Positions 42,634-59,523 of a DNA stretch of 64,000 nt are shown here, piece by piece. A program made the translations under genes and the position numbers. The notes beneath the pieces are model-generated. The model saw nothing but the letters and a program-made list of their open reading frames with translations. It had not been told where the DNA came from and ran no database searches. The stretch is taken from positions 310,001 to 374,000 of the forward strand of contig NC_015389.1 of the NCBI RefSeq assembly GCF_000195315.1. Direction: 5' to 3'. Every line of letters starts with the position of its first letter. Position 1 is the stretch's first letter. This stretch comes from Coriobacterium glomerans PW2 (GTDB lineage Bacteria > Actinomycetota > Coriobacteriia > Coriobacteriales > Coriobacteriaceae).

Positions 42634-43442
42634 AGCGAAATAGATCGCCGCCTCTCGTGCGATCCGCGCGCGCAGCCCAGGTCGTGTGAAGCCCTAAGAT
42701 GGGTATGTGTCCCACAGAGCTCGGAGGTGAGCGAGAAGACAGGGGGCAGCTCATGTGCAGCGAGTTCAAGATGATCCCCGATGAGGATCTCGAGTACGTC
42801 CTCGAGAGCGTTCGCGCTCGGCGCGCCGTCGGAGAGCTTCCCGCGCGGCCGGCTCGCAATCGTAGCGCCTATCCGAAGTCGGTCGCTTCGGTGGTGGTCC
42901 CGTTAGAGGGTGATTTCGTGCTGCGCGAGATGATCTGGGGCTACGAGCGTCCGTGGCTGAAGGTGCCCATCTTCAACACGCGAGCCGACACCGCCATGAG
43001 CCCGCAGGGGCGCAACATGTGGCGCGACTCACTTGAGCATCGACGCTGCATCATTCCCACGCTTGGTTTTTACGAGCCGCATAAATCTGAGAGGACCACA
43101 AGCGAGCGAACCGGACGGCCGATCAAGCAGAAGTTCCTGTTCACCTCGCCGCTCGGACCTCTGCTGTTCATCGCCGGCATCTACGAGGACGGCCATTTCT
43201 CGATGATGACGACCCAGCCGAACGCGTGCGTCGAGCAGATCCACAACCGGATGCCGGTGGTGCTCCACCAAGACGAGCTCGATCTGTGGAGCGGCAGCTC
43301 GTATGAGCGGGTGTTCGACAGAGACGGCTTCGCACTCGAGCCCACGCGCGTGGTGTAGCGCTCTCTCGCCGAGTTGAAATCGATCCTGCGCATGCCTCGC
43401 GCAGGCTCGCGTTCTCAGAGGCCCACGCTGTCGGGTACCATG
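42634..43442 (+). repeat. Direct repeat copy A (HMCES gene and flanks)
   Basis: About 0.8 kb with a near-identical second copy at ~44914-45721, same orientation, ~2.3 kb away. Similarity covers ~115 bp upstream of the gene, the gene itself, and ~80 bp after its stop; it fades at GTCGGGTAC. The segment between the copies holds the XRE/membrane-protein pair. Confidence 0.75.
42753..43358 (+). CDS. HMCES/YedK-type SOS response-associated protein, copy A
   Basis: 201 residues. Start ATG 42753 places Cys at position 2 (MCSEFKM), the residue that in HMCES/YedK crosslinks to abasic sites in single-stranded DNA; an in-frame ATG at 42699 would destroy that and is rejected. Other active-site segments are FNTRADTA, GFYEPHK and HNRMPVVL. 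The protein shields abasic sites from error-prone repair. A nearly identical copy lies at 45.0 kb (12 differences in 201 residues). Confidence 0.92.
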   Translation: MCSEFKMIPDEDLEYVLESVRARRAVGELPARPARNRSAYPKSVASVVVPLEGDFVLREMIWGYERPWLKVPIFNTRADTAMSPQGRNMWRDSLEHRRCIIPTLGFYEPHKSERTTSERTGRPIKQKFLFTSPLGPLLFIAGIYEDGHFSMMTTQPNACVEQIHNRMPVVLHQDELDLWSGSSYERVFDRDGFALEPTRVV

Positions 43443-44469: not shown

Positions 44470-45031
44470 GACGATCATCGCGTCTCGTGTAGAAGCTGCC
44501 GATCAGCGTCTACGATGCCCACCGCCTTCTTGGGCGGCCTCTTCGGCGTCGCACGCGGCGGCACCGGAGCGCTCGCGCCGATTGGACTTGAGCCTTTCGG
44601 TCTCTGCCATGCCCTGCGCGGGGTCGAGACGCTTGGTGCATTGTTTTGGTGAAAAGAAACACACGACTGAAATTGCAATCCAAGAAAATATCAGGAGTGC
44701 GGTGATCTTCTCGATTGCGAACCTGCTGCAAGGGCTCAAACCTCAGAGCATGAATGCTTTCTCAAGGCGTCCCACCGCCACGTCAGATCCTCGATGAGGC
44801 TCTTAGATGCATTTGGTAGGCGGTCCCACCTCATCAAGGGCAGGTTAAGGGCAAATCATGTGCAGCAGAAAACGTTCGGCGAGGGCAAAGCGGATTGCGG
44901 CGCTCAAGTCGCAGCGAAACGCGACGGCGCTTCTCGTGCGATCCGCGCGCGCAGCCCACGTCAGGTGAAGGCCTAAGATGGGTATGTGTCCCACAGGGCG
45001 CGGCCGCGAACGAGAAGACAGGGAGCAGCTC
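44470..45031. other. Intergenic region without a supported gene; right part belongs to direct repeat
   Basis: A plus-strand frame around 44650-44800 reads HTTEIAIQENIRSAVIFSIAN but lacks a start site; overlapping minus frames are shadows. From ~44914 the sequence is the upstream flank of the second HMCES copy. Confidence 0.5.
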
Positions 45032-45721
45032 ATGTGCAGCGAGTTCAAGATGATCCCCGATGAGGATCTCGAGTGCGTCCTCGAGATCGTTCGCGCTCGG
45101 CGCGCCGTCGTAGAGCTTCCCGCGCGGCCGGCTCGCAATCGCAGCGCCTATCCGAAGTCGGTCGCTCCGGTGGTGGTACCGTTAGAGGGTGATTTCGTGC
45201 TGCGCGAGATGATCTGGGGCTACGAGCGGCCATGGCTGAAGGCGCCCATCTTCAACACGCGAGCCGACACCGCCATGAGCCAGGAGGGGCGCAACATGTG
45301 GCGCGACTCGCTTGAGCATCGGCGCTGCATCATACCTACGCTGGGCTTTTTCGAGCCGCATAAAACTGAGAGGACCGTGAGCGAGCGGACCGGACGGACG
45401 ATCAAGCAGAAGTTCCTGTTCACCTCGCCGCTCGGACCGCTGCTGTTCATCGCCGGCATCTACGAGGACGGCCATTTCTCGATGATGACGACCGCGCCGA
45501 ACGCGTGCGTCGAGCAGATCCACAACCGTATGCCGGTGGTGCTCCACCAAGACGAGCTCGATCTGTGGAGCGGCAGCTCGTATGAGCGGGTGTTCGACAG
45601 AGACGGCTTCGCGCTCGAGCCCACGCGCGTGGTGTAGCGCTCTCTCGCCGAGTTGAAATCGATCCTGCGCATGCCTCGCGCAGACTCGCGTTCGCAGAGG
45701 TTCATGCTGTCGGGTACAATG
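44914..45721 (+). repeat. Direct repeat copy B (HMCES gene and flanks)
   Basis: Second copy of the ~0.8 kb repeat at 42634-43442. The similarity ends just at the promoter/palindrome of the downstream ATPase gene. Substitutions cluster at third positions and at a few codons, so both copies appear to be under constraint. Confidence 0.75.
45032..45637 (+). CDS. HMCES/YedK-type SOS response-associated protein, copy B
   Basis: 201 residues, 94% identical to copy A. Cys2 (MCSEFKM), FNTRADTA, GFFEPHK and HNRMPVVL are all kept, so the protein should be active. Start ATG 45032 chosen as for copy A. The gene is intact; duplication appears recent. It is followed by the palindrome and AAA_14 ATPase gene. 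Confidence 0.92.
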   Translation: MCSEFKMIPDEDLECVLEIVRARRAVVELPARPARNRSAYPKSVAPVVVPLEGDFVLREMIWGYERPWLKAPIFNTRADTAMSQEGRNMWRDSLEHRRCIIPTLGFFEPHKTERTVSERTGRTIKQKFLFTSPLGPLLFIAGIYEDGHFSMMTTAPNACVEQIHNRMPVVLHQDELDLWSGSSYERVFDRDGFALEPTRVV

Positions 45722-47164: not shown

Positions 47165-48022
47165 TCAGTCGGCGCAGATCCGGGACCTCAGGTAGTCGCC
47201 GCTCGTCTGCAGGCTCTTGATCGGGGACCGATCAACCCAGTTTCGATGTGTCTCCAGGATGATGCCTTCGACGTCGACGTCAAGGGCCTGCCGAATCAGG
47301 GGATCCAAGTCCATGTTGCCACTACCGAGCTCAGTGGTATCCGAGGTGAGAATAGGGGTGACATGCTTGGTCTTCATTCGAAATCCACGGTCTGAGATAT
47401 GGTGCAGGCGCATGCGCCGCCCGAGCCGTTTCATCCACGCCAGCGGATCGGCGCCGGCCTCGCATAACCAATACGTATCAAGCTCGAAATTCACCAGGTC
47501 GGGATCGGTCTGCTCGATGAGGACATCAAAAGCGCGCTGGCCGGGGCTCACATAGCTGAGCTCAGCGTTATGGTTGTGATACAGCAGCTCGACTCCCTCT
47601 TTGGCCAGAACGGCTCCGCAGCTGTTGAGATCTTCGCATAGCCCTCGGACGGCGGATTCGCTTGAATAGTCGAACCGATACATGCCGGTGATGACCGCGA
47701 GGTGCGTGCCGAAGCGGCGAGCCGAGGCGATGAAGGGCGAAGGATCGCGTTTGAGACCACCCAAGTCCGTGTGCAAGGCTACCACGGACAATCCGGCGTC
47801 CTCGACGAGCCGCGCCCAGTCCAGCCGTCCCGCGCGTCCGACCGGCATGCCCGCTGCGCGGGTGAGTGATCGCACGACCAATCCCGCCGGTGCGATCATG
47901 AAGCCATTGAGCTCGATCGCATCGTAGCCAGCTTCGCGAATCGCGCTCAGCGCTGCAGCCGCGCTGCGCTCCGAGCGTGCGACCGAACCGAGCATGACCT
48001 GTTGTACGGCAGTTGCAGTCAT
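47165..48022 (-). CDS. Sugar phosphate isomerase/epimerase (xylose-isomerase-like TIM barrel)
   Basis: 285 residues, cytoplasmic. Metal-binding residues typical of the AP_endonuc_2 superfamily are visible: ELNGF, ALHTDLGG, LLYHNHNAEL (His-Asn-His-Asn), FELDTYW and RLHHISDRG, and the final Glu in GIILETH. Family members isomerise or epimerise sugars, or act on inositol derivatives. It is divergent from the GH43 gene, whose promoter region it shares; probably converts a sugar released by the locus. Confidence 0.85.
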   Translation of the reverse strand: MTATAVQQVMLGSVARSERSAAAALSAIREAGYDAIELNGFMIAPAGLVVRSLTRAAGMPVGRAGRLDWARLVEDAGLSVVALHTDLGGLKRDPSPFIASARRFGTHLAVITGMYRFDYSSESAVRGLCEDLNSCGAVLAKEGVELLYHNHNAELSYVSPGQRAFDVLIEQTDPDLVNFELDTYWLCEAGADPLAWMKRLGRRMRLHHISDRGFRMKTKHVTPILTSDTTELGSGNMDLDPLIRQALDVDVEGIILETHRNWVDRSPIKSLQTSGDYLRSRICAD

Positions 48023-48103: not shown

Positions 48104-48168
48104 TTGACCGTCTATAGAATTACATATGTAATTATAACTGCATTCAATATAGTGAAATTGATATATCA
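48104..48168 (+). promoter_or_regulatory. Promoter with two operator-like palindromes before the GH43-GH78 genes
   Basis: TTGACC (48104-48109), 17-base spacer, TGTAAT (48127-48132). A perfect 16-bp palindrome AATTACATATGTAATT (48118-48133) covers the -10 box; a second one, TGATATATCA (48159-48168), lies downstream of the start. The same TTACATATG and TGATATATCA motifs recur before the GPH symporter (52391-52423). Confidence 0.65.
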
Positions 48169-48194
48169 GTTTTCACCAAGAAAGGACAGACTTC

Positions 48195-50006
48195 ATGCCC
48201 CGCACCATCTGCAATCCACTTGATCTCCCGTACCGCTATCAGATCAAGATCGCCCCCGGAAAGCAGGCGGAATGGATATTTCGCGAGGGGGCGGACCCCA
48301 CGATCATTCGGTGGCGCGACCGATTTCTCCTGTTCGCCTCGATGAGCGGAGGATTCTGGCATTCTCGGGACCTGATGAGCTGGGAGTTCAAGGCGACTCC
48401 GGAGCTGCCGATCCACGATTACGCACCCGACGTCCGCGAGATCGACGGCTCGGTGGTGTTCTGCGCAAGTCATCGCGATAGCCTGTGCACCTTCTACCGC
48501 AGCGAGGATCCGATCTCCGAGACCTTCGAGCCGATCGCGCAGACGATGGAGTTCTGGGACCCCGATCTGTTCCAAGATGACGACGGCAAGCTCTATCTCT
48601 ACTGGGGCTGCTCATCGACGGAGCCGATCTTCGGCGTCGAGCTCGATCGGCAGACCTTCAAGCCGCTCGGAAGCCCCATCCCGCTCATCGACAGAGACGA
48701 GAGCCGCTTGGGCTGGGAGCGCAAGGGAGAGAACAACCATGTAGGCGAGCCGAAAAATGCCATGGAGGCCGCGATCCTGGCGCATACCGGAAACAGGCCG
48801 TTCATCGAGGGCGCCTATATGACGAAGTGGAACGGTCGCTACTACCTTCAGTTTGCGGCACCGGGCACCGAGTGCAACGTCTACGCCGATGGCGTCTATA
48901 TCGGACGCTCGCCTCTCGGTCCTTTCGAGTATCAGGCATGGAACCCCTTTTCAAGCAATCCGGGCGGCTTCATGCAGGCAGCCGGGCACGGCAGCACGTT
49001 TCAGGATTTCTACGGCAACTGGTGGCACGCCTCGACCATGCGCATATCGGTCAACGAGAACTTCGAGCGTCGCATCGGCGTGTTCCCCTGCGAATTCGAC
49101 GAGGACGGCTTACTCCATTGCGACCAGCGCTTCGCCTGTCATCCCCAGGTGATGCCGAAGAAGCGCCGCGCCCTTGATCAGGTTGAGACGCCTTGGATGC
49201 TGCTGAGCGCGCTGGGGCGGGCGGACGCCTCGAGCCAAGAGGACGGGTTTTCAGCGGAAAATGCGATCTCGGAGGACTGCCGGTGCTGGTGGGCCGCAAA
49301 GCTCGACGATGCCGATCCCTGGGTCCAGATTGATCTTGGCCGGCTCGCCGAGGTTCATGCGATCCAGGTCAACCTAGCCGATCATAAGCTTCCTGATTCC
49401 GGAATCGAGGAGCGTGAGCTTGTCGATTCGGGAGCCTACTTCAAGCGCATCATCATCACCGAAGATCAACCTACCCGCTTTCTGCTCGAGACCTCCGAGG
49501 ACGGTTCGGCTTGGTGTCCGGTTGCAGATACCCGTGACGGCAGGTCGGATCGGCCGCATGCCTATTTCGAGCTCTCCGAGCCACGCCGTATCCGCTATGT
49601 CAGGTTGTCCGGTATCAAAGCGCCCATGGGGGGACGCGCCGCCGTCAGCGGGCTGCGCATATTCGGCTGCGAGGACGGAAGCGAGCCGGACACCGTGCGA
49701 AGCGTTCGCTCTCAAAGGACTGAGGGGGGACTCTCCGCAGAGCTGAGCTGGGACGAGGCGGCCGGTGCCGCCGGTTACGTCGTCCGGTATGGCACGGATC
49801 CGAAAAAGCTGTACGGCAGCTGGCAGCTGAGCGCTCAGAGCAGCACGAATCTGACGCTGAGCACGCTGGATGCCGACAAGCGCTACTGGGCCGCGGTTGA
49901 CAGCTTCGGGCCGTGCGGCGTCGTCCAAGGCGAGCCGTTTCCCATCGGCGATGCAGCGGATGAGAGCCCAAAGAGCTCCCAAGCCCAGTGCGATTCGACA
50001 GACTGA
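48195..50006 (+). CDS. Glycoside hydrolase family 43-like protein with F5/8-type C and FN3-like domains
   Basis: 603 residues, no signal peptide. Five-bladed propeller signatures: Asp of REGADPTIIRW, Asp of FWDPDLFQDDDGKLYLYWG, and Glu of PFIEGAYMTKWNGRYYL. A C-terminal discoidin-like (F5/8-C) domain follows (residues ~345-495: WWAAKLDDADPWVQIDLGRLAEVHAI, YVRLSGIKAP) and an FN3-like end (~515-590: AELSWDEAAGAAGYVVRYG). Family enzymes release arabinose, xylose or galactose. GH78 starts 46 bp downstream. The C-terminal modules may bind sugars. Confidence 0.85.
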   Translation: MPRTICNPLDLPYRYQIKIAPGKQAEWIFREGADPTIIRWRDRFLLFASMSGGFWHSRDLMSWEFKATPELPIHDYAPDVREIDGSVVFCASHRDSLCTFYRSEDPISETFEPIAQTMEFWDPDLFQDDDGKLYLYWGCSSTEPIFGVELDRQTFKPLGSPIPLIDRDESRLGWERKGENNHVGEPKNAMEAAILAHTGNRPFIEGAYMTKWNGRYYLQFAAPGTECNVYADGVYIGRSPLGPFEYQAWNPFSSNPGGFMQAAGHGSTFQDFYGNWWHASTMRISVNENFERRIGVFPCEFDEDGLLHCDQRFACHPQVMPKKRRALDQVETPWMLLSALGRADASSQEDGFSAENAISEDCRCWWAAKLDDADPWVQIDLGRLAEVHAIQVNLADHKLPDSGIEERELVDSGAYFKRIIITEDQPTRFLLETSEDGSAWCPVADTRDGRSDRPHAYFELSEPRRIRYVRLSGIKAPMGGRAAVSGLRIFGCEDGSEPDTVRSVRSQRTEGGLSAELSWDEAAGAAGYVVRYGTDPKKLYGSWQLSAQSSTNLTLSTLDADKRYWAAVDSFGPCGVVQGEPFPIGDAADESPKSSQAQCDSTD

Positions 50007-50051
50007 CGACAGAGTGCCTGCGCACGCAGGCTTGAGACAAAGGAGACGCCC

Positions 50052-52295
50052 ATGATCGAACAGGACCTGAACGATGCGTTGATCTGGATCGAGCGGCCCT
50101 ACGAAGAAGGTGCCGTGGAGCTGCTCGAGCAGATCGTGCCGGATGTGGAGCCGACGCGCGCGACGCTGACCATAACCGCGCTCGGACTCTATGAGGCCTC
50201 GATCGACGGTGCGAAGGTGGGCGAGGCCATGCTGGCGCCGGGCTACACGTATTACCCGCATGATCTTCGCTACCAGAGCTACGATGTGACGAGCATGCTG
50301 CATCCGGGGTCCCATCTTTGCGTCCTCCTTGCGCAGGGATGGTACTGCGGCCGCTTCGGCTGCGACAACAAGACGCAGCTCTACGGATCTGCTCCGTCGG
50401 TGGCATGGCTGCTCGACATCGAGGGCGAGGATGGCTCGGTGCATCGTCTCACCTCGGCGGACGATTCGGTGAGAGCGAAGGTGAGCCCATATGACTACGC
50501 CGGCCTCTACGACGGGGAGATCTACTGGGCCGAGGGCGCGTCCGAGAAGCGGCCGCAGACGCCCGAAGTCGTTCAGCCCTCCCGCAGCGCGTGCCATCTG
50601 CCTGACAACCTCGTTGCGAGCCGCACTGAGGTGAGGCTGCATGAGACCATCGACCCGATCAGCGTTACCGAGCATGGTCAGGTGACGATTCTGGACTTCG
50701 GTCAGAATATGGCGGCTGTCATCGAGATCGATCCCACGCTCGTTTCCAGCGACTGCATCACGATTCGCCATGGCGAGATCCTAGATGAGGATGGGAATCT
50801 GTATACGCGCAATCTGCGTCGCGCGAAGGCGACCATCGTCTATCACAAGGGGAGCGAGCATGAGATCTGGCGGCCCCGGTTTACCTATATGGGATTTCGC
50901 TTCGTCGAGCTCAGCGGCTCTGCCTACCGTCCCGGAATGCTGCGTGCCCGGCCGATTCACACCTCGATGGATCAGACGGGCCGCTTCTCAAGCGGACATG
51001 AAGGTCTCAATCGCCTGTATATGAATCAGATCTGGAGCCAGCGGTCGAACTACGTGGGCATCCCGACCGATTGCCCCCAGCGTGACGAGCGACAGGGATA
51101 CACGGGAGACGCGCACGTCTTCGCGCTCACGGCATCCTACAACTATGATGTTCGCGCGTTCATGAATGAGTTTCTCTGCGACATCCGCATGACCCAGCTT
51201 GATAACTCCGAGGGCTATGTCGGCCCGATCGCGCCGGCTACCGGCCCGACTGGCGTGGGGTTCATCACCATGCAGGGCTGGGGCAGCGCGGACACGATCA
51301 TCCCTTGGATGCTGTACGAGCAGTATGGTGACGATTCCGCTTTGAGGATGCAGTATCCGAGCATGCTCGCGCACACCGATTGCGAGCTGGCCCATGCCGG
51401 AGAAGGCGGTCTGTGGCTCGCTCCGAATCTCGGGGATTGGCTGGCCCCCGGCGTGGATGTCGCTTGGGCGGCCCAGCATAGCGCCCCGGTCTCCAATGCG
51501 TTTCTGATTCGCGATCTCGATCTTACCGCACGAGCGGCGAGATATCTAGGAAACTCGGCAGATGCAAAGCGACTTGAGGCGGCCGCCGCTCGCTGCAGGG
51601 CAGCATATCGCGACTCCTTCCTGACGCCTGACGGCCGCATGACCGATGGATATCAGGGTGCTCTGGTTCTGGCCCTCAACTATGTCATCGAGCAAGGTCC
51701 CGCATGGGAGGCAACATTCTCGCAGCTTGTCGAAGATGTTGAGACCCACGGACTTCGCACCGGCTTCTTCTCCACTGAGCACCTGCTCGGATTGCTGGCT
51801 GACAACGGTGAGGCGAGGCTTGCGTATGACCTGCTGCTGCAGGATGGCTGCCCGGGATGGATGTACCAAGTGAGAAAGGGGGCGACAACCATCTGGGAGC
51901 GCTGGGACGCGATTCGCCCCGATGGTTCGGTCAATGAGGATCAGACCTCTGAGCAGTCCAGTGAAAACATGGTCTCCTTCAATCATTATGCGTTCGGCAG
52001 CGTCGGCGCGTTTTTGTACCGCCACATCTTGGGAATCGCTCCGATCGAGCCGGGCTACCGTCGCGTGCGGATCGAGCCGCGCGTCGACAGACGTCTGGGA
52101 CATGCCCAAGGGGAATTCCGATCGGTCGCCGGAGACATCCGCGTCAGCTGGGACCTCGAGCGATCCGAGGCGACGCTCGATGTCGAGCTGCCGGTTTCAG
52201 GTGAGGTGCTTGTTCCTGACGGTTCGCGGCACGCGGTCGGCGCCGGGTCGCATCATTTCACGTTCGAGTTCGAACCTGCAGATCGGTTGCAGTGA
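50052..52295 (+). CDS. Alpha-L-rhamnosidase (GH78)
   Basis: 747 residues, intracellular (no signal). N-terminal beta-sandwich domains (TLTITALGLYEASIDGAKVGE, AQGWYCGRFG), then an (alpha/alpha)6 barrel containing PTDCPQRDERQGYTGDAHVF, the GH78 hallmark with the acid Glu, and EQSSENMVSFNHYAFGSVGAF with the base. C-terminal beta domain ends GAGSHHFTFEFE. It cleaves terminal alpha-L-rhamnose from plant glycosides, saponins or rhamnogalacturonan/arabinogalactan oligosaccharides. Start follows AAAGGAGA; cotranscribed with GH43. Confidence 0.93.
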   Translation: MIEQDLNDALIWIERPYEEGAVELLEQIVPDVEPTRATLTITALGLYEASIDGAKVGEAMLAPGYTYYPHDLRYQSYDVTSMLHPGSHLCVLLAQGWYCGRFGCDNKTQLYGSAPSVAWLLDIEGEDGSVHRLTSADDSVRAKVSPYDYAGLYDGEIYWAEGASEKRPQTPEVVQPSRSACHLPDNLVASRTEVRLHETIDPISVTEHGQVTILDFGQNMAAVIEIDPTLVSSDCITIRHGEILDEDGNLYTRNLRRAKATIVYHKGSEHEIWRPRFTYMGFRFVELSGSAYRPGMLRARPIHTSMDQTGRFSSGHEGLNRLYMNQIWSQRSNYVGIPTDCPQRDERQGYTGDAHVFALTASYNYDVRAFMNEFLCDIRMTQLDNSEGYVGPIAPATGPTGVGFITMQGWGSADTIIPWMLYEQYGDDSALRMQYPSMLAHTDCELAHAGEGGLWLAPNLGDWLAPGVDVAWAAQHSAPVSNAFLIRDLDLTARAARYLGNSADAKRLEAAAARCRAAYRDSFLTPDGRMTDGYQGALVLALNYVIEQGPAWEATFSQLVEDVETHGLRTGFFSTEHLLGLLADNGEARLAYDLLLQDGCPGWMYQVRKGATTIWERWDAIRPDGSVNEDQTSEQSSENMVSFNHYAFGSVGAFLYRHILGIAPIEPGYRRVRIEPRVDRRLGHAQGEFRSVAGDIRVSWDLERSEATLDVELPVSGEVLVPDGSRHAVGAGSHHFTFEFEPADRLQ

Positions 52296-52390
52296 AGCGT
52301 CTTCGATGATGACACGGCTGGTGTATGAACCGAAGCGAAAGGCTACCGTTCGCCGATCCTGAACCGCCGTTTAGGGAGAGCAATTAAAAG

Positions 52391-52423
52391 TTACATATGA
52401 TACTTTAAGATACTGATATATCA
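52391..52423 (+). promoter_or_regulatory. Operator motifs before the GPH symporter gene
   Basis: TTACATATG (52391-52399) and TGATATATCA (52414-52423) repeat the motif pair found before the GH43 gene at 48118-48168. TATGAT (52396-52401) is a candidate -10, so the first motif would again overlap the promoter. Shared control of both transcripts is implied. Confidence 0.55.
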
Positions 52424-52518
52424 ATTTTGGATCATGAAATCTACCACTGGTCCCGTTTGGACCACAAGGAAAGCGCATTGATTCTCAGAGGGAATCGAAA
52501 TCAGAGAAGGGAACCAGT

Positions 52519-54000
52519 ATGACTCAAGCAGCTGTCGTCACACCCGAACAACACGACGAGGTCTCCTATCGGCGTGCGAAGACATGGCAGATAGCCCTGT
52601 CTCAGATGTCATCGGGCATGACCATGACCTTCTACGTGCTGGTCGGTCTTTTGAGCTACGTCGCCAACGAGAACTACGGGATCGCTCTGGGGCTCGCCGG
52701 GCTGATCCTCACCGCGTCGCGCGTCCTCGACGGGTTTCTCAATCCGATACTCGCCCTCGTCATGGATCGAGTGAACACCAAGCACGGAAAGATCCGCCTG
52801 TTCATGATAGCAGGATGGACGATTCGCTCGATTGCGGCGCTGCTGCTGTTCGTTTGGAGCAGCGGCGGCGGCGTCATCCTGTTCGTGGCACTCTATCTGA
52901 TCTATATCGTCGGCAATGTGTCTTGCGATATCGCGTCTATTATGATTCAGCCGGTCATTACCAACGATCCGCGGCAGCGACCCGTTGTGGGCGTGTGGAG
53001 CACAGCGTACTCCTATGTGGTCCCGCTGCTGCTCACGGTGGTATCCAATGTCATCATCCTGCCGATGTTCGGCAATCGCTACACATCCGAGATGCTCGCT
53101 GCTGTTGCGCTATTCTACGTCCCGCTGTCCTTTGTGTTTCTCGCGCTCAGCTGCATTGCGATCAAAGACGTGGACGTTCCCGAGAATTTCGAGGGATTTT
53201 CCGCCGCCGGCGAAAAGGTTCGTCCCAGGGATATGTGGCACCTCATCAAGGACAACAGGCCGTTTCAGATGTATATCATTCATTGCGTCTCCGCAAAGCT
53301 GTCCCAGCAGACCATGAGCCAGGCGATAGTGGGAACGGTCGTCTTTGGGATCCTCGTCGGCAACATCCAGCTCAGCACGATCGTCTCCGGAATCTCATCG
53401 CTGCCTCAGATCATCTTCGCGATCATCGCCGCCCGGTACTGCGGCAAGCTCGGAAGCCGCAGGGTCGCCATCGCCTCCATGGTCGTCGGCATCATCTTAT
53501 CGGTTGCGGCTATAGCCTACTGCTCGGTTATCGACATGCGCCTGATCTCGACCTCGACGATTCCCATGGTGATCTTCTTCGCGCTGCTTCTGTTTCTCGG
53601 GGCGGCAAAGATGTGCGTGACCACGGCGGATACCGCTATGCGATCGGATGTGGTCGATTACGAGCTCATTCGATCTGGAAAATATCTTCCCGGCGTGGTG
53701 ACGGCGACCTATAACTTCATCGATCAGTTCGTCTCCTCGCTGGGCATCACCATCGCCGCGTTCGGTGTGAGCATGGTTGGCTTCGCGGCGGCGGCACCGC
53801 AGCCCACGGACGCGCCCACGCCGGAGATCAAAGTGATGGGTCTGTTTCTCTATTTCGTGATTCCCGCTCTTGCATGGGTCATCGGGCTGATCTCGATGAA
53901 ATGCTATCACCTCACGCGTGAGAAGATGGTGGAGATCCAGGTGAACATCGCAGATAAAAAGGCGGAGCTAGCACAGAATCCCTCCAAGCAACCGCTCTAG
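52519..54000 (+). CDS. GPH-family (glycoside-pentoside-hexuronide:cation) symporter
   Basis: 493 residues with about twelve membrane helices. The N-terminal pattern (RVLDGFLNPILALVMDRVNTKHGKIRLFM) is the GPH signature: cation-binding Asp in helices 2 and 4 and the loop motif. Family members bring in melibiose, lactose, xylosides or glucuronides with Na+ or H+. Position after GH78 and before GH2/GH1, plus the shared operator pair, suggest that it feeds rhamnose- or galactose-containing oligosaccharides to the glycosidases. Start follows GAAGGGAAC. Confidence 0.9.
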   Translation: MTQAAVVTPEQHDEVSYRRAKTWQIALSQMSSGMTMTFYVLVGLLSYVANENYGIALGLAGLILTASRVLDGFLNPILALVMDRVNTKHGKIRLFMIAGWTIRSIAALLLFVWSSGGGVILFVALYLIYIVGNVSCDIASIMIQPVITNDPRQRPVVGVWSTAYSYVVPLLLTVVSNVIILPMFGNRYTSEMLAAVALFYVPLSFVFLALSCIAIKDVDVPENFEGFSAAGEKVRPRDMWHLIKDNRPFQMYIIHCVSAKLSQQTMSQAIVGTVVFGILVGNIQLSTIVSGISSLPQIIFAIIAARYCGKLGSRRVAIASMVVGIILSVAAIAYCSVIDMRLISTSTIPMVIFFALLLFLGAAKMCVTTADTAMRSDVVDYELIRSGKYLPGVVTATYNFIDQFVSSLGITIAAFGVSMVGFAAAAPQPTDAPTPEIKVMGLFLYFVIPALAWVIGLISMKCYHLTREKMVEIQVNIADKKAELAQNPSKQPL

Positions 54001-54073: not shown

Positions 54074-56275
54074 ATGCGTACGATGACAGTGCTCTCCCGA
54101 GATTGGACGTTTGTCAAACAGGCAGCCGATGCCGAGGAGGCAGCGCGTCTGCCTGGAGAGAGCGTCGAGGTGCCGCACACATGGAACGCGACGGACGGTC
54201 AAGATGGCGGCAACGATTACCACCGGGGAACCTGCTGGTACGTTCGTCAGCTGGACAAGCCGACCGACCTCGGTGATCGTCGCGTGTGGCTGGAGTTTCG
54301 CGGCGCGGCGATGAGCGCTGCGGTCTTTCTCAATAAGGAGCTGCTGTGCGAGCACGCGGGAGGCTATTCCACCTTTCGCGTCGATCTGACCGATCATCTG
54401 CTGGCGCACAACACGATCGCCGTGAGCGTAGACAACACGGAGAACGATCGCGTATACCCCCAGACGGCCGATTTCACATTCTACGGCGGCCTGTATCGGC
54501 CGGTGCTGATGCTGGTCGTGCCCGCCTGCCATTTCGCGCTGGGACCCGATGGAGGTCCGGGAATCCACATCACCACTAACGTGGATCCCCATCTCCGGCA
54601 CGCCACCGTGGAGGCGCAGGCATGGATCGAAGGCGACGCCTCCGAAGTGATCTTCACGATAAATGAAACGCGCCGCGCCGCGGCGGTGGTCGACGGACAT
54701 GCATCCGCTACGTTTGAGATGGATCATATCCGTCTTTGGGATGGTCTGAGAGATCCGTTTCTCTATGATGCCACGGCGTCGTTGGCATCAGGCGATGAGG
54801 TCGCCTGCCGGTTCGGTCTGCGAAGCTTCGAGATCGATCCATCGCGAGGCTTCCTGCTCAATGGCAGACCCTATCCTTTGCGAGGAGTGTCGCGCCATCA
54901 GGATCGATGGGGAGTCGGAACGGCGATCAGCGACAGGATGATGCGTGAGGACATGGACATCATCCGAGAGCTAGGTGCCACCACCGTGCGCCTCGCGCAC
55001 TACCAGCACGCTCAGGAGTTCTACGATCTGTGCGACGAGTGCGGTATCGTCGTATGGGCGGAGATCCCCTACATCACCATGCAACTGAGCGATGGCCGAG
55101 CCAACATGCTGAGCCAGATGCGCGAGCTGGTCGTGCAGTCGTACAATCATCCCTCGATCGCGGTATGGGGCCTCTCCAATGAGATCACCGCGGCGACTCC
55201 GGTGGATGATGCTCTGCTGAAGAACCATCGAGATCTCAATGATCTGTGCCATGCGCTCGATCCGTCCCGTCTCACGACGATGGCAAACGTATTCATGCTC
55301 GAAACCGATAGCGAACTGCTATCCATACCGGATGTGAACAGCTACAACCTGTATTTCGGATGGTATCTGGGGGAGCTGGAGCAAAACGACTCGTTCCTCG
55401 ATGACTTCCACGAGGCGCATCCGGATATGCCGCTCGGACTTTCGGAGTATGGGGCCGATGCCAATCCGGACATCCAAAGCGCCCATCCAGAAAAGGGAGA
55501 TTACTCGGAGTCCTATCAATGCATCTACCACGAGCACATGCTTGAAATGATTCAGAGCAGGCCATGGCTGTGGGCCACGCACGTCTGGAATCTGTTCGAT
55601 TTCGGTGCGGACGGCAGAGATGAGGGAGGGAAACACGGGCAGAACCAAAAGGGCTTGGTCACATTCGACCGCTCGCTTAAGAAGGACGCCTTCTATCTGT
55701 ACCGTGCCGCTTGGAACAAAAAAGACCCCTTCGTTCACCTTTGCGGGTCGCGATATGTCGATCGCGCAGAGGATGTCACGGAAGTCAAAGTCTATTCAAA
55801 CTGCTCAGAGGTGTCGCTTTTCGTTGACGGCGCGCTGCTTGGCACGCAGAGAGGCGCCACGGTCTTCCGCTTTCAGGTGCCGATCACCGGCGAGCATCTC
55901 ATCGAGAGCAAATCCGGCGCATGCTGCGATGCGATACAGGTGCGCAAGGTCGACGCTCCCAATCCGCGGTACTCGCTGAGCTGCGAGCGCGCGGTGAGCA
56001 ACTGGTTCGATCGCGAGCAGGTCGATCCCGATTTCTACTCGGTCGTGGACACGTTCGGAGATCTGCGGAAAAATGACAAGGCAAAGGCAGTTATCGATCG
56101 AACCATGAAAGAAGCCGCGGCGTCAAGAGGCGATGTGGCGACGAGGGTGCAGGACAATCCGGCACTTCAACGCATGATGGAGCGCATGACGTTTCTGAGC
56201 CTGTTGAAGCAGGGCGGCGCAGACGAGCAGAGCGTACAGCAGCTCAACCGCGTTTTGCAGTCCATACCCAAGTAG
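54074..56275 (+). CDS. Glycoside hydrolase family 2 (beta-galactosidase-like)
   Basis: 733 residues, no signal peptide. Jelly-roll (VEVPHTWNATDGQDGGNDYHRGTCWY), Ig-like (SRGFLLNGRPYPLRGVSRHQD) and barrel (MMREDMDIIRELGATTVRLAHYQHAQ) domains; acid/base Glu in AVWGLSNEITA and nucleophile Glu in LGLSEYGADAN. A C-terminal extension of ~130 residues (helical, from ~600) replaces the long domain of LacZ. HTWN and HYQH match beta-galactosidase-type enzymes, but beta-glucuronidase or exo-activity on galactans remain possible. 73 bp after the symporter; the GH1 gene follows. Confidence 0.92.
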   Translation: MRTMTVLSRDWTFVKQAADAEEAARLPGESVEVPHTWNATDGQDGGNDYHRGTCWYVRQLDKPTDLGDRRVWLEFRGAAMSAAVFLNKELLCEHAGGYSTFRVDLTDHLLAHNTIAVSVDNTENDRVYPQTADFTFYGGLYRPVLMLVVPACHFALGPDGGPGIHITTNVDPHLRHATVEAQAWIEGDASEVIFTINETRRAAAVVDGHASATFEMDHIRLWDGLRDPFLYDATASLASGDEVACRFGLRSFEIDPSRGFLLNGRPYPLRGVSRHQDRWGVGTAISDRMMREDMDIIRELGATTVRLAHYQHAQEFYDLCDECGIVVWAEIPYITMQLSDGRANMLSQMRELVVQSYNHPSIAVWGLSNEITAATPVDDALLKNHRDLNDLCHALDPSRLTTMANVFMLETDSELLSIPDVNSYNLYFGWYLGELEQNDSFLDDFHEAHPDMPLGLSEYGADANPDIQSAHPEKGDYSESYQCIYHEHMLEMIQSRPWLWATHVWNLFDFGADGRDEGGKHGQNQKGLVTFDRSLKKDAFYLYRAAWNKKDPFVHLCGSRYVDRAEDVTEVKVYSNCSEVSLFVDGALLGTQRGATVFRFQVPITGEHLIESKSGACCDAIQVRKVDAPNPRYSLSCERAVSNWFDREQVDPDFYSVVDTFGDLRKNDKAKAVIDRTMKEAAASRGDVATRVQDNPALQRMMERMTFLSLLKQGGADEQSVQQLNRVLQSIPK

Positions 56276-56314: not shown

Positions 56315-57625
56315 ATGCTGCCAGATGGATTTCTGATCGGAGCGGCGACCGCCGCGCATCAGGTCGAGGGAAACAACGTGCACAGCGACCTTTGGGCTCT
56401 GGAGCAGATGGAGCACAGCAGCTATGTCGAGCCCTCGCTCGACGCTATGGATCATTACCGACGCTATGCCGAGGATATCGCTCTTCTCGGATCAGCAGGG
56501 CTCGACGCTTATCGATTCTCTCTGGAATGGGCTCGCATCGAGCCTGTGGAGGGGCAATTCGACGATGGGGCGATCGAGCATTACCGCGACGTCATCCGAT
56601 GCTGCAAGACGCACGGCGTCGAGCCGATTGTGACCCTGATGCATTTCTCCAGCCCGTTTTGGCTGACCGAACATGGCGGCTGGGAGAGCGATGATACGCC
56701 CAGGCGCTTCGAGCGCTATGTGGAGAAGATCGTATCCGCACTTGGAGATGACCTCGGCTATGTGTGCACCATCAACGAGGCAAACATCGGATTTCAGATC
56801 GCCCGAATAACAGAGCTCTTCAAACGACAGGCTCAAGCTGCGCAGGTGAAGGCGGCCAGTCATGACGTGTCCGGATCTGCTGCGGAAAGCAATTTGCAGA
56901 TGGGAATGAACCTGCAAAAGATGCTAGAGGTACGACAGCTGCAGGAAAAGGAGTGCGAGCAGGTATTCGGTTGCGCCGTCCCGCAGACGTTCACAAGCGC
57001 CCGCTCAAAGCACGGGGACGAGATCGTGATGGAGTCACATGAGAGGGCGCGTCGTATCATCCGTCGGGTCGCTCCGCATGTTCGAGTCGGTCTTACGCTG
57101 AGCCTGCACGATATCGTAGCGTTGCCGGGAGGGGAGCAGCTCGCTCACAAGGAGTGGGACGAGGAATATCTGCACTATCTCCCGGTGATCGAGGCCGACG
57201 ACTTTCTGGGAGTTCAAAACTACACGCGCTCCCTCGTCGGCCCCGACGGAGATCAACCGGCCCCCGAGGGCGCGGAGCTGACCCAAGCGGGATATGAATT
57301 TTGCCCGCAGGCGTTGGAAGGCGTGATTCGATCGGTTGCCGAGAACTTCTCAGCGGAGCTTATGGTCACAGAAAACGGGATAGCGACCGATGACGACAGC
57401 CGACGTGTTGCGTTCATTTCCGAGGCGCTTTCCGGTGTCGATCGGTGCTGCGCAGATGGCATTCCTGTGAGCGGATACATGCATTGGAGCCTGATGGATA
57501 ACTTCGAATGGCAGCTCGGCTTTGCCATGCACTTCGGTCTTGTGCACGTTGATCGCGAAACCCAGTGTCGAGTGCCCAAGCCGAGTCTCGAGCATCTCGG
57601 TTCATTCGCCAAAAGGGACCATTGA
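56315..57625 (+). CDS. Glycoside hydrolase family 1 (beta-glucosidase-like)
   Basis: 436 residues, cytoplasmic. N-terminus FLIGAATAAHQVEGNNVHSD is canonical. The acid/base is in VCTINEANI (usual NEP is replaced by NEA) and the nucleophile in LMVTENGIATDD; WSLMDNFEWQLGF gives the aglycone-site Trp. A ~65-residue helical insertion (ELFKRQAQAAQVKAAS...) follows the acid/base. Sequence around the active site does not show the phospho-glycosidase Lys/Tyr clearly, so a plain beta-glucosidase/galactosidase is preferred. Last gene of the operon. Confidence 0.9.
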   Translation: MLPDGFLIGAATAAHQVEGNNVHSDLWALEQMEHSSYVEPSLDAMDHYRRYAEDIALLGSAGLDAYRFSLEWARIEPVEGQFDDGAIEHYRDVIRCCKTHGVEPIVTLMHFSSPFWLTEHGGWESDDTPRRFERYVEKIVSALGDDLGYVCTINEANIGFQIARITELFKRQAQAAQVKAASHDVSGSAAESNLQMGMNLQKMLEVRQLQEKECEQVFGCAVPQTFTSARSKHGDEIVMESHERARRIIRRVAPHVRVGLTLSLHDIVALPGGEQLAHKEWDEEYLHYLPVIEADDFLGVQNYTRSLVGPDGDQPAPEGAELTQAGYEFCPQALEGVIRSVAENFSAELMVTENGIATDDDSRRVAFISEALSGVDRCCADGIPVSGYMHWSLMDNFEWQLGFAMHFGLVHVDRETQCRVPKPSLEHLGSFAKRDH

Positions 57626-57667: not shown

Positions 57668-58294
57668 CTAGCGCTCGCCCTGCTCGCGAACACCGCGCCC
57701 TGCCGGCTGCGCAAGCGTTGAGAGCACCTCGCTCGCGTCATGCGACACGCGCAACACGGCATCGGTCATCTCTGCGATATCTCGGCTCATGTCTTGCATG
57801 ATCCAGACAAACGCCAACGAGTAGACCCCGCCTGTTATGAATGCGGTGAAATCTCCGACAGCCTGTTCCCCTGCGCTTCTTTTTCGGTCATCTACGGGAG
57901 CGATTCCCATGGAATGCTGCGTCGCCAAAATCCACAGATGGCCGAAAAGCGCTGCGAGCAGATGATTCTCCCGAAGCAGGTCGAACAGCTGGTGATGACG
58001 TTGCATAGCTTGAAAAAACCTGTAGATGAGCTGTCTTCGATCCGGACTGCTCGCAATCGATCCTTCGAGCTCATCGCTGATATCGCGAAATATCGCCGCG
58101 GCATAAAAGCCGCACACATCCTCTGTCGCATCGAAGTGCCGGTAAAATGTCGGGCGCGAAACGCCGGCCCGCTCACATATGAGCTTGATCGTCACCTCTG
58201 CAAAAGGGAGCTCTTTCAGAAGTTCGATCAGAGCATCTCCGATAGCCTGTTGGGCAACTTTGTTTCGTTTTGACGAATAGAGGCGATATGCCAC
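57668..58294 (-). CDS. TetR/AcrR-family transcriptional regulator
   Basis: 208 residues. HTH: IGDALIELLKELPFAEVTIKLICERAGVSRPTFYRHFDATEDV (residues ~17-60). The C-terminal half is a TetR_C_8-like helical ligand domain. Start GTG 58294 after AAGGAGTC. It is convergent to the GH1 gene and stands 57 bp from the GntR gene, in the same direction. It may bind the TTACATATG-type palindrome in the glycosidase promoters, which is TetR-like, but that link is inference. Confidence 0.9.
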   Translation of the reverse strand: MAYRLYSSKRNKVAQQAIGDALIELLKELPFAEVTIKLICERAGVSRPTFYRHFDATEDVCGFYAAAIFRDISDELEGSIASSPDRRQLIYRFFQAMQRHHQLFDLLRENHLLAALFGHLWILATQHSMGIAPVDDRKRSAGEQAVGDFTAFITGGVYSLAFVWIMQDMSRDIAEMTDAVLRVSHDASEVLSTLAQPAGRGVREQGER

Positions 58295-58351: not shown

Positions 58352-59065
58352 TCAAGCGCTGAAGTACGTATCGAACGTTTTCACGACATGTTTTCGCTCT
58401 TCGATCATCATATGCAGGTGCTGTGATATAAGGAAGCCCACCTCTGTCGTTTGCCTCGCGACGATCGCCTCGCGAAGCGCATGGTGCTCTTTCAAGATGG
58501 CTTCCCATTCCAAGCCCTTGGTTTGAACGCGAAGCAAGCGAAAACGTTCGAGATCGGCGTTGGTGGCGCTCAGCCAGGTCCAGACCGGTGTGCGTCCCGC
58601 TATGTCGAAAAGGGTCTGATGCATGAGGTTGTCAGTGGCGAAGAAGTCGTTGTAGCTGTGACGCTCGCGCGCACGCTCCTGAAGGCGGATCGTGCGATCA
58701 ATCAGCCTGACATCGGCTGTTGTCGCGATCGCGCAGCACTCGATCGCGACTTCGCGTTCGAGATGCTCGCGGACGAACCGGGCATTTTCAGCACGGTCGA
58801 GATCGATCGTCGTCACATATGTGCCGCTCTGCGGCATGATGCGGACGAGGCCCTCCTGTTGAAGCCGAACCAAAGACTCGCGCACCGGGGTTCGTCCCAT
58901 GTTCAGATGATCGCTCAGATCCTTGAGGATCAGTTTCTCTCCGGGTTTGTACTCCAAGCGGATGATGCTGCTGCGGATGGCTTGAAATGCCTGCTCCTGA
59001 AGTTTGGACAACGGCTCTTTCTGCAATGAATTCCCCCAAGTCTGATTCGAAGATTTACGTGCCAT
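58352..59065 (-). CDS. GntR-family regulator, FadR subfamily (FCD domain)
   Basis: 237 residues. Winged HTH (KPGEKLILKDLSDHLNMGRTPVRESLVRLQQEGLVRIMPQSGTYVT) and an all-helical FCD ligand domain with metal-binding residues (D..H in DNLMHQTLFDIAG, EHHALREAI, QHLHMMIEERKH). FadR-type proteins recognise palindromes and respond to sugar acids, pentoses or organic acids. TGATATATCA in the GH43 and symporter promoters is of the right kind (UxuR-like AT palindrome). Together with the TetR gene it forms the regulator pair of the glycan locus. Confidence 0.92.
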   Translation of the reverse strand: MARKSSNQTWGNSLQKEPLSKLQEQAFQAIRSSIIRLEYKPGEKLILKDLSDHLNMGRTPVRESLVRLQQEGLVRIMPQSGTYVTTIDLDRAENARFVREHLEREVAIECCAIATTADVRLIDRTIRLQERARERHSYNDFFATDNLMHQTLFDIAGRTPVWTWLSATNADLERFRLLRVQTKGLEWEAILKEHHALREAIVARQTTEVGFLISQHLHMMIEERKHVVKTFDTYFSA

Positions 59066-59223: not shown

Positions 59224-59237
59224 TGACAGATATGTCA
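59224..59237. promoter_or_regulatory. Dyad TGACA-GATA-TGTCA upstream of the XRE gene
   Basis: Perfect 5-bp arms around four bases, overlapping a TTGACA box at 59223. It is a likely operator, either for the divergent GntR gene or for the XRE regulator that begins 80 bp downstream. Confidence 0.4.
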
Positions 59238-59266
59238 GTTTATCTAAACATTAATGATGTTATAAG

Positions 59267-59319: not shown

Positions 59320-59523
59320 ATGTCTACTCTCAAAGAGGTACGCAAAGCGCGCGGGCTGACACAGAAAGATGTTGCAGATCACCTCGGAATATCTCGGCAA
59401 ACCTATTCAGGATATGAAAATGAGCAGGATAGGATGACCATTGGGCAAGCCAAGTCCGTCTGCGCCATGCTCAAATGCGAGATCATCGAGGTCTTCGCTC
59501 CTGCAGGAGCGGACAAGAACTAG
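59320..59523 (+). CDS. Small XRE-family HTH protein
   Basis: 67 residues, almost entirely an HTH_3 domain: LKEVRKARGLTQKDVADHLGISRQTYSGYENEQDRMTIGQAKSVCAMLKCEIIEVF. AAAGGGGGAGA precedes the ATG. No obvious partner follows: the ~490 bp downstream contain only weak ORFs and the pyruvate-kinase terminator. It may be a relict of a toxin-antitoxin or phage-like pair, or an independent regulator. Confidence 0.85.
   Translation: MSTLKEVRKARGLTQKDVADHLGISRQTYSGYENEQDRMTIGQAKSVCAMLKCEIIEVFAPAGADKN

Follow-up and report, generated by a model that had tools for sequence, protein, structure and literature searches.

Paired candidate operators point to dual TetR and UxuR-type GntR control of a rhamnoside/glucuronide locus in Coriobacterium glomerans

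Background

A cluster of glycosidase and transport genes in Coriobacterium glomerans PW2 has two promoters that share a pair of AT-rich motifs, which raises the question of which regulators might read them and what signals would thereby be combined. A preliminary description of the 64-kb stretch of DNA containing this cluster (positions 310,001 to 374,000 of NC_015389.1; hereafter 'the window', in whose numbering coordinates are given unless otherwise labelled) suggested that a TetR and a FadR-type GntR protein encoded nearby could be the readers, and hence that the locus could be under two-signal control. A known system of related design is that of Escherichia coli beta-glucuronidase (GUS), where the regulator GusR, or UidR, is a TetR family protein. 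The uid (gus) operon is controlled by GusR through the operators O1 and O2 (PMC9881133), and uidA and uidB are also under UxuR/ExuR control (PMC9369180). The UxuR operator has been described as TKGT-N2-ACMA, a dyad with a 2-nt centre (PMC4494728).

Gene content of the locus

On the + strand, the locus runs from a gene for a GH43 glycosidase with an F5/8-type C domain (48195-50006) through those for a GH78 alpha-L-rhamnosidase (50052-52295), a glycoside-pentoside-hexuronide (GPH) family cation symporter (52519-54000), a GH2 enzyme (54074-56275) and a GH1 beta-glycosidase (56315-57625). At the far end, on the - strand, are tetR (57668-58294) and gntR (58352-59065), the latter encoding a protein with a GntR helix-turn-helix (HTH) and an FCD domain. 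A xylose-isomerase-like TIM-barrel protein of the AP_endonuc_2 type is encoded divergently from the GH43 gene (47165-48022, - strand). Judged by the gaps between genes, the forward genes would form two operons, GH43-GH78 and symporter-GH2-GH1, and each of these has a single motif pair.

The GH2 enzyme is a probable beta-glucuronidase. It matches the solved beta-glucuronidase PDB 7kgz end to end (1018 bits) and, like the gut FMN-type/LacZ4-type GH2 beta-glucuronidases (PDB 7kgz, 6mvg and 6mvf, which we take to be of the FMN type), has a full-length match and an NxK motif, its GQNQKG aligning with GNKKG of E. coli UidA. Its top profile is the LacZ4 beta-glucuronidase model, yet it falls under the cut-off of that model; against the GUS equivalogs it scored 518 bits for NCBIfam NF050095 (cut-off 950) and 231 bits for PRK10150 (cut-off 544). 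Its close PDB matches carry both beta-glucuronidase and beta-galactosidase names, and its substrate is putative. Given the NxK glucuronidase signature, hydrolysis should yield glucuronate. The presence of GH78 and GUS enzymes here, together with the rhamnose and glucuronate operons that neighbour each other elsewhere, suggests a substrate containing both rhamnose and glucuronate, for instance a saponin or flavonoid glycoside. No PDB homolog of the GH43 enzyme was found at E <= 1e-10.

Two other regions of the window have features of separate interest. Two genes for SOS-response associated peptidases (SRAP) lie on the same strand 1.6 kb apart (42699-43358 and 44978-45637), and the segment 28001-32000, with a GC content of 49% against approximately 60% for the genome, is possibly foreign DNA.

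Paired sites at the two promoters

The first motif is a perfect 16-bp palindrome, AATTACATATGTAATT, in the divergent promoter between the GH43 and AP_endonuc_2 genes (48118-48133), and the second, AATTGATATATCAGTT, lies between this promoter and the GH43 start (48156-48171). Upstream of the symporter gene are a degenerate copy of motif 1, GTTACATATGATAC (52390-52403), and a further copy of motif 2, TACTGATATATCAATT (52411-52426). The shared words originally remarked upon, TTACATATG (48120-48128 and 52391-52399) and TGATATATCA (48159-48168 and 52414-52423), are thus indeed present before both genes. Motif 2 extends to a 16-mer, AAATTGATATATCAGT, common to both promoters in opposite orientations. 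Motif 1 is a full palindrome only at GH43, the symporter copy comprising a clean half-site and core. The centres of the motifs are 38 bp apart in one promoter and 22 bp in the other, a difference from which independent, rather than cooperative, binding would be expected.

The palindrome was also said to cover a -10 element. A candidate -35 sequence for GH43-GH78, TTGACC (48104-48109, + strand), is separated by 17 bp from a candidate -10, TGTAAT (48127-48132), which does fall inside motif 1. This part of the original reading is plausible but, as the pair scored under the threshold of the promoter scan, tentative.

Over the whole genome (2,115,681 bp), the observation proved stronger than first stated: TTACATATG occurs in only two places, the GH43 and symporter promoters, and TGATATATCA in three, these same promoters and that of uxuB. 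That such similarity might arise by chance in AT-rich promoter sequence deserves consideration, as a first-order model predicts 2.3 and 0.85 sites per genome, respectively, and single words are therefore not rare; it is instead their co-location that carries the signal. When two and three sites are placed at random, the probability of the two TTACATATG sites each having a TGATATATCA site no more than 60 bp away is ~3e-8, which bears out the initial judgement that the coincidence was unlikely to be chance. Likewise, the palindrome AATTACATATGTAATT is expected ~1e-5 times per genome, and the 16-mers at their observed mismatch levels between 1e-5 and 1e-1 times.

The same sites are selected by position weight matrices trained solely on sites from other genomes. 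When the window was scored with the motif 1 matrix, 48119 ranked first (27.3 bits) and 52390 second (16.6 bits); with the motif 2 matrix, the ranking was 48156 (22.7 bits), 52411 (20.4 bits) and then a weak site, GACAGATATGTCAGTT, 5' of gntR (59225-59240; 15.6 bits). The top scores in simulated 64-kb sequences reached 16.5 bits for motif 1 and 17.3 bits for motif 2, making 52390 and 59225 marginal on score alone. Chance resemblance is hence exceedingly improbable as a general explanation. It can in effect be discarded for motif 2 and, at the GH43 promoter, for motif 1; the case against it is weakest for the motif 1 copy before the symporter gene. The weak motif 2 site may possibly be autoregulatory; the intergenic region in which it lies is shared with a small XRE-type HTH gene (67 aa; 59320-59523) divergent from gntR.

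A candidate reader of motif 1

Coriobacterium glomerans is the sole member of its genus in the genome set, and relatives with an orthologous locus were found through alignment of the symporter: Collinsella massiliensis GD3 (G061) and an uncultured Coriobacteriaceae bacterium (G063). Searching for the motif 1 consensus, ATTACATATGTAAT, at up to three mismatches returned mostly noise (18 matches in the source genome against 8 in the control), and only sites with two or fewer were used. At this threshold, all four sites in G061 and four of the five in G063 are on the contig of the orthologous locus and lie within that locus, and in both genomes they precede the symporter gene, the divergent AP_endonuc_2 gene and tetR. 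Two intragenic motif-1-like sequences near the rhamnose region of C. glomerans (L064:975 and 2980) were dismissed as chance matches, both lying within coding sequence.

Among 398 Coriobacteriia genomes, the TetR is found in three and the GH43 in the identical three. The TetR of the window is 40-44% identical to those of G061 and G063, and the recognition helix, SRPTFYRHFDA, is the same in each. That motif 1 is read by another regulator, with the TetR a bystander, might be proposed from the absence of motif 1 from the window's own tetR promoter, unlike the orthologous promoters; with both relatives carrying the motif before tetR, and TetR, GH43 and motif 1 sharing one three-genome distribution, such an arrangement seems very unlikely. 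There is accordingly strong evidence, of a comparative kind, that motif 1 represents the putative operator of this TetR, much as had been suggested. A predicted structure of the protein (pLDDT 77) resembles generic TetR regulators (TM ~0.55) and is uninformative on the ligand.

In G061, a site with three mismatches is found 5' of a rhamnulokinase gene. This motif-1-preceded gene is followed by one for an isomerase that bears a weak resemblance to sulfoquinovose/arabinose isomerases and then by one for a rhamnulose-1-phosphate aldolase (L035:5230-6657), and C. massiliensis may possibly have a non-canonical rhamnose isomerase here.

A candidate reader of motif 2

The third genomic TGATATATCA site lies 290 kb from the locus, at the promoter of uxuB-uxuA-uxaC (L064:12803-12818; G000:C1:648802-648817), where it forms part of a 28-bp perfect palindrome, GTGTAAAACTGATATATCAGTTTTACAC. 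This operon is directly 3' of the rhamnose operon rhaB-rhaA-rhaD, and uxaC is followed by a truncated GH31 gene (276 aa; L064:17218-18048). In both G061 and G063, uxuB and a gene orthologous to gntR of the window (~47% identity) flank a motif 2 dyad (consensus AAYTGATATATCARTT), an arrangement also seen in several Coriobacteriales. The family of this GntR was found in 43 of the 398 Coriobacteriia genomes. When 13 loci with a member of this family linked to uxuB, uxuA or uxaC were inspected, nine had an upstream site within three mismatches of AACTGATATATCAGTT, three had a weaker, recognisable dyad and one had none.

Phylogenetically, the window GntR falls within a supported clade (98/97) holding most of the uxu-linked GntRs, with which it has a common recognition region, GRTPVRESLVRL...PQSGTYV. 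The closest proteins by identity are GntRs of Collinsella encoded beside yeiH rather than uxuB (sister support 89/79), a weakly supported placement that calls for some caution. These Collinsella paralogs, divergent from a gene for a YeiH-like membrane protein (L085-L107), have a dyad resembling motif 2, AACTGACATATGAGTT, in their own promoter. In G063, a motif-2-like sequence, AACTGATATACCGGTT, is located just 5' of a pyruvate kinase gene (L081:9814-9829; G063:C23:19814), possibly linking glucuronate catabolism to this enzyme.

The source genome harbours no second member of the window GntR family at E <= 1e-30. It does encode another GntR-FCD protein (G000:C1:654375-655133), approximately 1.3 kb past the end of uxaC and beyond the truncated GH31 gene, which by its position might be the reader of motif 2 in place of the window GntR. 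That there is much to this seems hardly probable, given that its identity is just 24-26% to the GntR of the window and to the one linked to uxuB in G063, and 28% to the G061 counterpart, that its recognition region has diverged (SKTPVHQAINLL vs GRTPVREALVRL) and that its own promoter is without motif 2. The recurrence of motif 2 between uxuB and orthologs of the window GntR instead identifies the latter as a putative UxuR-type regulator, in agreement with the suggestion that this motif resembled UxuR-type sites. Taking both assignments together, the two site pairs are very probably docking sites for the regulators encoded beside the genes.

Comparison with the E. coli uid system

As in the E. 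coli uid system, the locus brings together a GH2 beta-glucuronidase, a GPH symporter and a TetR family regulator, alongside a UxuR-type GntR that would also run uxuAB; and, at the sequence level, its promoters contain candidate sites for both a locus-specific and a hexuronate regulator. It differs in having additional GH43, GH78 and GH1 genes, a different operator sequence and an actinobacterial host. The TetR itself also differs, matching UidR in a 41-residue HTH stretch only (E 2.5e-4), and its PDB matches at E <= 0.001 do not include GusR; on these grounds, orthology to UidR was rejected.

The window GntR resembles UxuR and the FadR subfamily in its GntR and FCD domains and in the linkage of its orthologs to uxuBA, with 30% identity to E. 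coli UxuR over 117 aa (E 2.8e-9). Against the NCBIfam UxuR equivalog NF007588, however, it scored 30.8 bits, far under the cut-off of 442. Motif 2 has the same 2-nt geometry as the UxuR operator (PMC4494728), with boxes that are mostly TGAT/ATCA rather than TKGT/ACMA; TGAT/ATCA boxes around a 2-nt centre are the form in C. glomerans, and TGGT variants occur in its relatives. By linkage, domain content and operator geometry, this protein would therefore function like UxuR, while not being an ortholog of the enterobacterial UxuR.

A model of dual control and its origin

Together, these results make it probable that the rhamnoside/glucuronide locus is doubly repressed by a locus-specific TetR and a UxuR-like GntR that also acts on uxuB-uxuA-uxaC. 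Each promoter, of GH43-GH78 and of symporter-GUS-GH1, would have one operator for each repressor, both of these being encoded at the end of the locus. The TetR would bind ATTACATATGTAAT, with the imported glycoside, or a compound formed from it, as its probable inducer, and the GntR would bind AAYTGATATATCARTT and probably be released by an intermediate of the glucuronate pathway; the same GntR would control uxuB-uxuA-uxaC at a distance. The locus would then be fully expressed only when both signals are present (AND logic), with the glucuronate operon answering to the GntR alone. The probable beta-glucuronidase in the locus provides a metabolic reason for the second signal.

There might be no AND gate if one of the regulators were an activator, or if each promoter had a single functional site and dual control were a relic. 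At the symporter, motif 1 is a degenerate copy whose score of 16.6 bits compares with a maximum of 16.5 in the simulated sequences, the spacing of the motifs is not kept between the promoters, and the glycoside loci of the relatives are without motif 2; but motif 2 is still one or two mismatches from ideal at both promoters, which requires selection or a very recent origin. Such alternatives are unlikely. The proposal of two-signal control thus stands as regards its two candidate regulators, each favoured by comparative evidence, with the AND logic the likely way in which they combine.

Comparison of orthologous promoters had been put forward as a check, with absence of the motifs counting against the proposal, and this applies in part: in G061 and G063 motif 1 is present, before the symporter, AP_endonuc_2 and tetR genes, and motif 2 is absent from the glycoside-locus promoters, which makes the dual control look lineage-specific. 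With gntR also beside uxuB in these two genomes, the locus appears to have joined the UxuR regulon in the C. glomerans lineage, the direction of this change, by recruitment of the locus, being what two outgroups would indicate. We lean slightly towards a history in which Coriobacteriaceae independently evolved an AND gate over glucuronide utilisation, combining a non-orthologous, locus-specific TetR with a GntR that senses hexuronates, and in which the UxuR regulon of this lineage recently captured the whole locus, through movement of gntR from uxuB and gain of motif 2 at both promoters.

Conclusions

Through the beta-glucuronidases of the gut, glucuronides of drugs and plants become active again. 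GusR varies in its distribution among other gut bacteria, whose regulators are uncharacterised (PMC9881133). A GUS locus of the Coriobacteriaceae now has two candidate regulators and explicit candidate operators, and a UxuR-like regulator can be followed, together with its candidate operator, through the Coriobacteriales. The two-signal logic of the E. coli uid system has seemingly been rebuilt here from different parts, with a pair of regulators that looks independently assembled.
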